From positions 1 to 64,000 of the forward strand of contig NZ_QLME01000008.1 in the NCBI RefSeq assembly GCF_003259895.1: 64,000 nt of DNA. Direction: 5' to 3'. How positions within the stretch are numbered: position 1 is the first letter of the stretch; each line of letters opens with the position of its first letter. The notes beneath the pieces are model-generated. The model did not search any database and was not told the DNA's origin. It worked only from the letters and a program-made list of their open reading frames with translations. The stretch is from Halanaerobium saccharolyticum (GTDB lineage: Bacteria > Bacillota > Halanaerobiia > Halanaerobiales > Halanaerobiaceae). A program made the translations under genes and the position numbers. This document shows positions 5,536 to 34,938 of the stretch, piece by piece.

Positions 5536-6835
5536 TCTGGATATGTCAAAATTAGAAGATAAGCTTAAAGATATTAATATGACGCGAAACTTTGGCCATA
5601 TTAATCGTGTAATCGGACTTGTAATTGAGTCAATTGGACCTCAGGCTTCACTGGGAGAACTCTGTTTAATCAAAGGGGATCACGAAGACATTAAAGCAGA
5701 AGTAGTTGGCTTTGATGATAATAAAGTTTTGATGATGCCGATTGGTGAGATGGAAGGGATCAAACCTGGGGCCAGAGTAGTAGCAACTGATCAGAAATTA
5801 AAGGTTAAAGTAGGTAGAGAGCTGCTTGGTAAAATAATTGACGGCAGTGGAAATGTGATTAGTGATGATAATCTCTCTGGTTTAAATGAAGTTCCTGTCA
5901 CTCGCAAGCCCCCCAATCCATTAACTCGAGAAAGAATTAAAGAACCATTATCTTTAGGGGTCCGCTGTATTGATGGCTTTTTAACCTGTGGTAAGGGCCA
6001 GCGCCTGGGTATTTTTGCCGGTAGTGGTGTTGGTAAATCAACTTTGCTAGGTATGGCTGCCCGAAATACTAATGCTGATATTAATGTAATTGGTCTGGTT
6101 GGTGAGCGTGGACGTGAGGTTAGAGATTTTATAGAAAAAGATCTGGGTCCAGAAGGTTTAGAACGCTCAATTGTGGTAGTTGCTACCTCTGATCAACCAG
6201 CACTGTTAAGAGTTAAAGCGGCTAATATAGCAACAGCAATTGCTGAATATTTTAGAGATCAGGGTGAAGATGTACTGCTGATGATGGACTCTGTTACCCG
6301 GGTCGCGATGGCTTTAAGAGAAGTTGGACTTGCTATTGGCGAGCCCCCGGCAACAAGAGGTTATCCACCTTCTGTATTTGCTGAACTACCGAAGTTATTA
6401 GAAAGAACCGGAACAAATGATCTGGGTTCTATCACTGCCTTATACACTGTCCTGGTCGAGGGTGATGATTTTAATGAACCTGTTTCTGATACTGTTCGTG
6501 GTATTTTAGATGGACATATTTCTCTATCCAGAGAGCTGGCAGAATCCAGCCATTATCCTGCAGTTGATGTTTTAAGCAGTGTCAGCAGAATTATGGAGGA
6601 TATAGTGAGTGAGGAACACAGTCAGGCGGCAGCCAGACTGCAGAAATTAATTGCAACCTATAATCAATCTGAGGATTTAATTAATATTGGTGCCTATGAG
6701 AAAGGTTCTAATCCAGAGGTTGATAAAGCAATAGATAAGATTGATGAAATAAATGATTTTTTAACTCAGGGAATTAACGAAGAAGCCAATTATGAGGACA
6801 CTGTCCAGCAGTTAATCAAAATAGCTAATAATTAG
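5528..6835 (+). CDS. fliI: Flagellum-specific ATP synthase FliI
   Basis: FliI is the hexameric ATPase of the flagellar type III export apparatus. The 435-residue protein shows an N-terminal beta-barrel, the Walker A motif AGSGVGKST (residues 164-172), Walker B around DVLLMMDSVTR, and the family signature PPATRGYPPSVFAELPKLLE. The length is typical. The start overlaps fliH, and fliJ, encoding its central-stalk partner, follows within 26 bases. Confidence 0.97.
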   Translation: MINLDMSKLEDKLKDINMTRNFGHINRVIGLVIESIGPQASLGELCLIKGDHEDIKAEVVGFDDNKVLMMPIGEMEGIKPGARVVATDQKLKVKVGRELLGKIIDGSGNVISDDNLSGLNEVPVTRKPPNPLTRERIKEPLSLGVRCIDGFLTCGKGQRLGIFAGSGVGKSTLLGMAARNTNADINVIGLVGERGREVRDFIEKDLGPEGLERSIVVVATSDQPALLRVKAANIATAIAEYFRDQGEDVLLMMDSVTRVAMALREVGLAIGEPPATRGYPPSVFAELPKLLERTGTNDLGSITALYTVLVEGDDFNEPVSDTVRGILDGHISLSRELAESSHYPAVDVLSSVSRIMEDIVSEEHSQAAARLQKLIATYNQSEDLINIGAYEKGSNPEVDKAIDKIDEINDFLTQGINEEANYEDTVQQLIKIANN

Positions 6836-33110: not shown

Positions 33111-33139
33111 TTGACAATTTACAATAACTGATGTATAAT
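33111..33139 (+). promoter_or_regulatory. Near-consensus promoter for trpP1
   Basis: TTGACA (33111-33116) and TATAAT (33134-33139) are exactly 17 bases apart. Transcription would start near 33146, so the whole GAG/TAG triplet series at 33164-33228 lies in the leader RNA. Confidence 0.8.
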
Positions 33140-33163
33140 ATTATACAATTAGAAAAGTTAATG

Positions 33164-33228
33164 GAGATTAGCTTTTAGATGAGTTGAGATGAGAAATAAT
33201 TATATGAGGAGAGATGAGTTGAGATGAG
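33164..33228 (+). promoter_or_regulatory. TRAP (MtrB)-type binding site in the trpP1 leader, 11 GAG/UAG triplets
   Basis: Triplets GAG or TAG begin at 33164, 33169, 33176, 33181, 33186, 33191, 33206, 33211, 33216, 33221 and 33226. Eight of the ten spacings are exactly two bases, and the other two are 4 and 12. TRAP, an 11-subunit ring, is known to bind (G/U)AG triplets spaced 2-3 bases when loaded with tryptophan, and it represses trpP translation in Bacillus subtilis. The last triplets overlap the ribosome-binding site (AGGAGAG, 33207-33213) and the ATG at 33224, so binding would block initiation (inference). Confidence 0.75.
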
Positions 33229-33751
33229 AACAAAAGATTTAGCACAGGCGTCTTTGTTGGTGGCAATTGCAATGATTTTGAGGTCTCTGACACCTCCAAT
33301 ATTTTTGGGGATGAAACCTGATTTAACTTTAACAATGATGTTTATTATTTTGATTGTTAAAAGGGATATTAAATTGGGTTTTCTGGTAGCTTTAGCGACA
33401 GCAATTTTTACAGCTTTAACTACTACATTTCCGGGTGGACAGATCGCTAATATAGTTGACAAATTACTTACTTTTGTAATTGTTTATAATCTGATATCAG
33501 TATTTAATAAGTTTATGCAGAGAAAAACTTTAGCTGGTGTCACCACAGCAGTGGGTACAATTATAAGTGGTAGTATTTTTCTAACTATTGCCTCAATGCT
33601 GGTAGATTTACCTGCACCTTTTTCTGCCTTATTTATAAGTGTGGTTTTACCGGCAGCAGTTGTTAATACAATAGCTGCAGTTATTTTATTTAGTGTTGTC
33701 GATTTTGCAATTGATGTGGAATATAATCAGGTGGAAAACGAAACACTATAA
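33224..33751 (+). CDS. trpP: Tryptophan transporter TrpP, copy 1
   Basis: This is a TrpP-family tryptophan uptake protein of the cytoplasmic membrane. The 175-residue protein has about five to six membrane helices. The family marks are TPPIFLGMKPDLTLTMMF and the strongly conserved ALTTTFPGGQIANIVDK, with a C-terminal VVLPAAVVNTIAAVILF. The length matches Bacillus TrpP. It is followed 61 bases on by a close paralogue. Tryptophan is known for the family, and the TRAP-type leader independently supports that substrate. An ECF-type S-component is a remote alternative. Confidence 0.88.
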   Translation: MRTKDLAQASLLVAIAMILRSLTPPIFLGMKPDLTLTMMFIILIVKRDIKLGFLVALATAIFTALTTTFPGGQIANIVDKLLTFVIVYNLISVFNKFMQRKTLAGVTTAVGTIISGSIFLTIASMLVDLPAPFSALFISVVLPAAVVNTIAAVILFSVVDFAIDVEYNQVENETL

Positions 33752-33754
33752 GCT

Positions 33755-33823
33755 GAGAACATTTTTTAAGTGAGATGAGATGAGTAAAAACAAAAAGGAG
33801 AGATGAGTTGAGATGAGAATTAG
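33755..33823 (+). promoter_or_regulatory. TRAP-type triplet series upstream of trpP2
   Basis: GAG/TAG triplets start at 33755, 33772, 33777, 33782, 33800, 33805, 33810, 33815 and 33821, making nine. Two-base spacing runs 33772-33784 and 33800-33817, with three bases before the last. The 3' block covers the GGAGAG ribosome-binding site and the ATG at 33813, as for trpP1. The 19-base string AGATGAGTTGAGATGAGAA is identical at 33177, 33212 and 33801. Confidence 0.68.
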
Positions 33824-34346
33824 TACAAAAGATTTAGCACAGGCGGCTTTGTTGGTAGCGATAGGATTTATTTTACATGCTTTTTTTCCTCCAATTGTAA
33901 TGGGGATGAAACCTGATTTTGCTTTAGCGATGATGTTTATTTTATTAATCATCAAACAGGATTTTAAATTAGGATTTTTAGTTGCAGTAGCTACTGGGAT
34001 TTTTACTGCTTTAACTACAGGTTTTCCTGGAGGCCAGGTGGCAAATATGGTAGATAAGCTGTTAACATTTATGATAGTTTATCCCTTAATTCCAATTATA
34101 GTTAAACTGCCATCTAGAAGATTATCTACCGGAATTATAACAGCTTTTGGTACAATGTTGAGTGGAGGAATTTTCCTCGGTACAGCTGCTTTATTGGTTG
34201 GCTTACCCGGTCCATTTACTGTATTATTTTCTACAGTAGTAATCCCGGCAGCAGTTGTAAACACTATCACAGCAGTTATAGTATTTAGTGTAGTTGATTT
34301 TGCAATGGATGTAGAAGTAGAAGGTACTGAAAACGAAGCTGTATAA
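33813..34346 (+). CDS. trpP: Tryptophan transporter TrpP, copy 2
   Basis: This is a 177-residue paralogue of the preceding gene with the same membrane topology and the signatures FFPPIVMGMKPDFALAMMF and ALTTGFPGGQVANMVDK. It ends in a short acidic tail (EVEGTENEAV). The two copies differ most in the central region around residue 95-110. They may differ in affinity or in their response to tryptophan, since each has its own triplet leader. A clear intrinsic terminator follows, closing the trpP1-trpP2 unit. Confidence 0.87.
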   Translation: MRISTKDLAQAALLVAIGFILHAFFPPIVMGMKPDFALAMMFILLIIKQDFKLGFLVAVATGIFTALTTGFPGGQVANMVDKLLTFMIVYPLIPIIVKLPSRRLSTGIITAFGTMLSGGIFLGTAALLVGLPGPFTVLFSTVVIPAAVVNTITAVIVFSVVDFAMDVEVEGTENEAV

Positions 34347-34503: not shown

Positions 34504-34938
34504 ATGAGAGTTGATGCTCCGATTGGGAAATGGATCGCTAAGTTGTATAAAAATCATGATCAATATGTGGATAATTTGTTGGAAGATTATAATTTAAATC
34601 ATAGTGAAGGGAATTTACTAGTTTATTTATATAAAGATGGAGATGGAATTAGTCAAAACAAATTAAAAGAGAATTTAGCAGTAGATAAAGCTACAATTTC
34701 CAGAGCTATTTATTCATTAATTGAAAAAGATTATTTAAAGAAAAGAAAATCACCAGAAGATGGTAGAGTTAATTTAATATATCTGAGTGAAAAAGCTGAG
34801 GCTGTCAAAGAAGAAATAAATGATATTTATCAGCAGTGGTTTCAAATTTTTATTGATAAAATAGGAGAACAGGAAGCTAAAAGAGTACTGGATAATCTAA
34901 AAAAAATGTATGAAATTGTTAAGACTAGAGAGAATTAA
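34504..34938 (+). CDS. MarR family transcriptional regulator
   Basis: The 144-residue protein has the MarR winged helix-turn-helix fold: dimerisation helices at both ends and a recognition segment (about residues 48-75, NKLKENLAVDKATISRAIYS). The wing EKDYLKKRKSPEDGRVNLIY has the conserved D-x-R. MarR proteins usually repress their own operon and are released by small lipophilic ligands. Two palindromic operators flank its promoter, supporting autoregulation. The transporter gene follows after 42 bases, so it probably controls export of something that acts as its ligand, which cannot be named from the sequence. Confidence 0.92.
   Translation: MRVDAPIGKWIAKLYKNHDQYVDNLLEDYNLNHSEGNLLVYLYKDGDGISQNKLKENLAVDKATISRAIYSLIEKDYLKKRKSPEDGRVNLIYLSEKAEAVKEEINDIYQQWFQIFIDKIGEQEAKRVLDNLKKMYEIVKTREN

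Follow-up and report, generated by a model that had tools for sequence, protein, structure and literature searches.

Two tryptophan transporter genes lie in tandem in the window, the whole 64,000-nucleotide stretch of Halanaerobium saccharolyticum DNA that was analysed. The first, trpP1 (33224..33751, + strand), encodes a TrpP protein of 175 residues with a PF17099 score of 153 bits. The second copy, trpP2 (33813..34346, +), scores 152 bits and is 66% identical to trpP1. Both exceed the family cut-off of 27 bits. A promoter of the sigma-A type (33111..33139, +) precedes trpP1. Its two hexamers, TTGACA and TATAAT, are perfect and 17 nt apart. The same promoter type occurs upstream of trpP in most relatives. 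The trpP1 leader extends about 78 nt past this promoter and contains a Shine-Dalgarno motif, AGGAG (33207..33211, +), which is rather far (12 nt) from the ATG at 33224-33226. No promoter was found just upstream of trpP2. A gene for a MarR-type protein lies downstream of trpP2, at 34504. The sole Rfam match in the window is a c-di-GMP-I riboswitch at 908-992 (68 bits).

The start of trpP1 is overlapped by eleven (G/T)AG triplets (33164..33228, +). Read from the window sequence, these begin at positions 33164, 33169, 33176, 33181, 33186, 33191, 33206, 33211, 33216, 33221 and 33226. The gaps between them are 2, 4, 2, 2, 2, 12, 2, 2, 2 and 2 nt. Briefly, the array consists of six triplets, a 12-nt A/U-rich spacer and five further triplets. 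The Shine-Dalgarno motif falls within triplets 7 and 8, and the ATG is also inside the array. The first-pass annotation had described eleven GAG/UAG triplets, with exactly 2 nt in eight of the ten gaps, covering the ribosome-binding site and start codon. The sequence and the shuffles described below bear this out. It had also placed the array wholly within the leader. However, triplet 11 (33226-33228) begins at the final G of the ATG and ends two bases into codon 2.

Arrays were scored using a home-made chain score, devised after the finding had been seen, that gives credit for KAG triplets at 2-nt spacing. We applied the score to the window and to fetched loci; genome-wide searches used triplet patterns. 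The trpP1 array scores 8.9, the highest value in the window. In 100 dinucleotide-shuffled versions of the full window, scored on both strands, the best score was 5.2 and the maxima averaged 3.7. Shuffling the local 160 nt around the array 2000 times gave scores of 5.0 or less. The array beats every shuffle. Therefore, the triplets are not explained by base composition alone. Only two stretches of the window score above 3.3, and these are the starts of trpP1 and trpP2. The latter has eight triplets, split 3 + 5 (33772..33823, +), that cover the trpP2 Shine-Dalgarno motif and start codon and score 6.4. With regard to sites for the RNA-binding regulator TRAP, the trpP1 array has the usual 9–11 (G/U)AG triplets, mostly 2–3 nt apart and above chance, with the 4- and 12-nt gaps as deviations. 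Overlap with the Shine-Dalgarno motif and start codon is as in sites of the translational type.

Genome-wide, a six-triplet pattern, allowing at most one mismatch, matched only the trp operon leader (twice) and trpP1. Other, four-triplet matches (loci L003, L004, L010, L011 and L012) were rejected as chance, a reversed control pattern being about as frequent. We also set aside a mini-ORF, ATGAGTTGA, 5' of the trpP ATG. This is probably a by-product of the repeat; it is lost from the trpP copies of genomes G015 and G020, where the triplets are kept. In a separate observation, the leader of a sodium symporter gene (PF00209; L016, G000:C4 9502-9685, minus strand) contains triplets at loose spacing, with partial conservation across the genus and a low array score of 3.6. 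This leader is a possible candidate for a further TRAP target.

The first-pass annotation had staked its reading on an mtrB gene, encoding TRAP, elsewhere in the genome. Our search found this gene at G000:C17:60476-60679 (PF02081, 130 bits, E 7e-38). It also scores above the NCBIfam NF009724 (MtrB) cut-off. Genes resembling dnaE and pfkA flank mtrB, one on either side. The Halanaerobium TRAP aligns over its full length with TRAPs of solved structure and retains the EKLDK and K(I/V)RG stretches. We take these to contain the RNA-binding Lys/Lys/Arg residues of B. subtilis TRAP. The suggested search for anti-TRAP (rtpA) gave no match above the family cut-off in the genome. The best of the matches below the cut-off, within a 377-residue open frame, is probably due to DnaJ zinc fingers. 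The mechanism had been called best known from Bacillus. Of 299 genomes sampled from the phylum, 151 (about half) encode TRAP, which is thus not mainly a Bacillus trait. In the searched papers, which include few from subscription journals, TRAP is not described for Halanaerobium.

The genome also contains a trp operon with the order trpEGDCFBA, its genes named by reading of the translations, and a TTGACT-17-TATAAT promoter. An eleven-position array lies between this promoter and the terminator: GAG GAG GAG CAG TAG GAG GAG GAG GAG TAG GAG. Hence, there are ten KAG triplets and one CAG, with spacers of 2 nt except for one of 3 nt. The CAG is replaced by TAG in the trp leaders of G015, G025 and G026, which supports the position as a real triplet slot. 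A hairpin followed by a T run lies downstream. In the predicted fold, keeping the array unpaired allows this hairpin to form; without that restraint, the array pairs across it. A promoter and terminator scan of the leader did not flag this hairpin. Arrays are present in many trpE leaders of the order.

Other trp genes also have triplets. Inside the trp operon of this genome, six TRAP-like triplets lie over the trpD ribosome-binding site (L015, about 6336-6370). Several Halanaerobium genomes share these, and the trpD start is overlapped in G028 and G029 (L138 and L139 cited); G015, G018 and G020 have weaker triplets or have lost them. No trpE was detected in G001 (L161) or G031 (L160); there, a lone trpB is preceded by TRAP arrays and terminator-like stretches.

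We compared 38 genomes of the Halanaerobiales. TRAP is present in 32, trpP in 25 and both in 22. Of the 22 genomes with both, 21 have a triplet cluster (score of at least 4.0) at the start of trpP; the exception, G007, scores 2.5. The trpP starts of two TRAP-less genomes scored 1.6 and 1.7, so neither has a cluster (0/2); the TRAP-less side of this co-occurrence test is small and comes from a single family. As background, 112 of 10852 125-nt tiles from all fetched loci, the targets themselves counted, score at least 4. In Halanaerobium, the trpP site is usually split into about 3–6 triplets, an A/U-rich spacer and 4–5 triplets ending on the start codon. The last triplets are nearly invariant, and changes are mostly GAG to TAG or within a spacer. 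In G010 (H. congolense), the half-sites are about 135 nt apart (L040, about 1320-1500), and the insert between them, which could form several hairpins, has no match in Rfam.

The number of trpP triplets varies between 4 and 11 across relatives, with only 4–6 in G002-G005, G008 and G010. Therefore, exactly eleven is not conserved. Given this range, we do not claim an exact match between eleven triplets and the eleven TRAP subunits. The first-pass assignment of one triplet to each subunit is unsafe for the same reason, and also given the 12-nt split and the location of triplets 1 and 2 in a predicted hairpin. This 10-bp hairpin, AAAAGUUAAU-GGAG-AUUAGCUUUU (33153..33176, +), is near the mRNA 5' end, and the two triplets fall in its loop and 3' arm. 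It has a free energy of -7.7 kcal/mol, with z about -3 over the first 45 nt, and is the sole strong stem in the leader fold. Seven other Halanaerobium trpP leaders have a similar hairpin (z from -2.3 to -3.9 relative to simple shuffles), which is absent from others. In the B. subtilis trp leader, a 5' stem-loop is said to help TRAP. The trpP1 hairpin may be a TRAP helper or have a role in mRNA stability.

Could slippage over a purine-rich ribosome-binding site have produced the trpP1 array as a GATGA-like simple-sequence repeat, without any regulator being involved? The leader does contain two near-identical 20-nt copies (TAG/GAG-ATGAGTTGAGATGAGAA), and GAG-rich stretches look like Shine-Dalgarno sequences. 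However, KAG is retained while the first base switches between G and T and the spacers vary. For instance, GAG/TAG exchanges preserve KAG in the trpP copies of G015 and G020. Furthermore, the arrays are located at tryptophan genes, in a genome with mtrB, and are missing from the two TRAP-less relatives scored. We consider slippage extremely improbable. Control by another regulator, be it a T-box or a repressor bound to the DNA of the inverted repeat (33153-33176), is hardly credible. Such a repressor might be of the MarR type, like the product of the gene at 34504 after trpP2, and the palindrome is just 3' of the trpP1 promoter. Yet the palindrome is missing from several relatives that have the triplets, such as G011 and G013. 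An Rfam scan of the window found no T-box (RF00230), upstream of trpP or elsewhere.

It is very unlikely that TRAP binds the trpP1 leader and acts mainly on transcription or mRNA stability, and less on ribosome access. In B. subtilis, TRAP can also cause termination without an attenuator (PMC3913778). Against such action here, the array covers the Shine-Dalgarno motif and start codon, and the 5' hairpin is the only strong stem in the predicted fold of the leader. In addition, PMC11255114 and PMC13170310 describe control of B. subtilis trpP at translation.

We are highly confident, from sequence evidence, that 33164-33228 is a TRAP site controlling trpP1. Import would very probably be shut off when tryptophan is plentiful. 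Alongside the observed arrays, mtrB, promoter and co-occurrence, we infer binding, tryptophan dependence and repression from homology and position. With plentiful tryptophan, the TRAP ring would bind the trpP1 triplets, cover the Shine-Dalgarno motif and start codon, and block ribosomes. When tryptophan is scarce, TRAP would be released from the mRNA and the importer made. The eight-triplet site would place the downstream trpP2 under the same control. At the eleven-position site of the trp operon leader, binding of the same TRAP would probably favour a terminator.

In a tree, trpP1 and trpP2 fall in two clades within the genus. Therefore, the duplication is probably old. In G017, G016, G012, G019 and G014, a trpP2-type gene lies downstream of a trpP1-type promoter and hairpin. 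This layout fits a scenario in which the repeated sites recombined and trpP1 was lost.

The leader of trpP is different in family f7, which lacks TRAP. All three TRAP-less genomes with trpP have a T-box (RF00230) upstream of the gene: G033, G037 and G036, with 118.5, 108.9 and 105.9 bits, respectively. Aligned, the G033 and G037 T-boxes have UGG at the apparent specifier position, where G036 reads GAAUGG. A short frame with a Trp-Trp pair (NMDTWWR, NMDTWWQ or NKDIWWQ) lies between T-box and trpP. These upstream regions are at L028 1060-1540, L030 1058-1540 and L153 2072-2510. In the minimum-energy folds of G033 and G037, the bases right after Trp-Trp pair with the trpP Shine-Dalgarno motif over 9–11 bp, with z only -2.2 and -1.3. 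This pairing is not in the fold of G036, where the trpP frame is interrupted.

A similar pattern is seen at an aldehyde:ferredoxin oxidoreductase operon, which includes a TIGR04076/ferredoxin protein. In G021, which has TRAP, eight triplets lie upstream, on the minus strand of L158, some 190 nt ahead of the gene at 587-1330. In the TRAP-less G033 and G037, the operon has a UGG T-box (L166 and L167 cited for the operon). Neither triplet array nor T-box was found at the operon in G032, which has TRAP. We give an even chance to the proposal that, in the Halanaerobiales, TRAP arrays (in most lineages) and Trp T-boxes (in the TRAP-less family) replace each other at trpP and the oxidoreductase operon. 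In family f7, trpP would have a second check, a Trp-Trp peptide whose next codons can pair with the ribosome-binding site. The same exchange at the oxidoreductase operon independently ties the trpP leaders to tryptophan sensing. The two systems differ in what they sense: tryptophan for TRAP arrays versus uncharged tRNA for T-boxes. That the operon contributes to tryptophan supply is a guess. If true, aldehyde:ferredoxin oxidoreductase would be an unrecognised part of this supply. The use of arrays or T-boxes by lineage offers a testable substitution of tryptophan-sensing systems.

Our analysis would extend a textbook RNA-binding regulator to an order of anaerobic halophiles, with a readable regulon. 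In this genome, the regulon would comprise the trp operon and both copies of the importer gene. In relatives, it would include the lone trpB and perhaps the oxidoreductase. TRAP is kept in genomes without a detected trpE.

Action of TRAP at B. subtilis trpP is already known; PMC11255114 and PMC13170310 report that TRAP impedes ribosome binding there. The trpP1 site would be a further instance of that kind. As for the B. subtilis trpP (yhaG) leader, there is a homologous transporter, (G/U)AG triplets at the translation start, and mtrB in the genome. Unlike B. subtilis, this genome has trpP in two tandem copies, and each copy has its own site. The Halanaerobium site is split by an A/U-rich spacer of at least 12 nt, a 5' hairpin is predicted, and no anti-TRAP was found. 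The mechanism predicted is that of the B. subtilis trpG and ycbK leaders, where TRAP impedes ribosome binding, with other target genes. The eleven-position array of the trp operon resembles the B. subtilis trp leader, which has 11 (G/U)AG triplets and TRAP attenuation. In contrast, the trpP1 site is at a start codon and not a terminator, and in Halanaerobium the trpD start has triplets too. B. subtilis anti-TRAP is controlled by a tandem T-box and a leader peptide (Chen and Yanofsky 2003, 2004, as cited in PMC11255114). Outside the window, the trpP upstream region of the TRAP-less relatives resembles this arrangement, but there control would act directly on the transporter gene.
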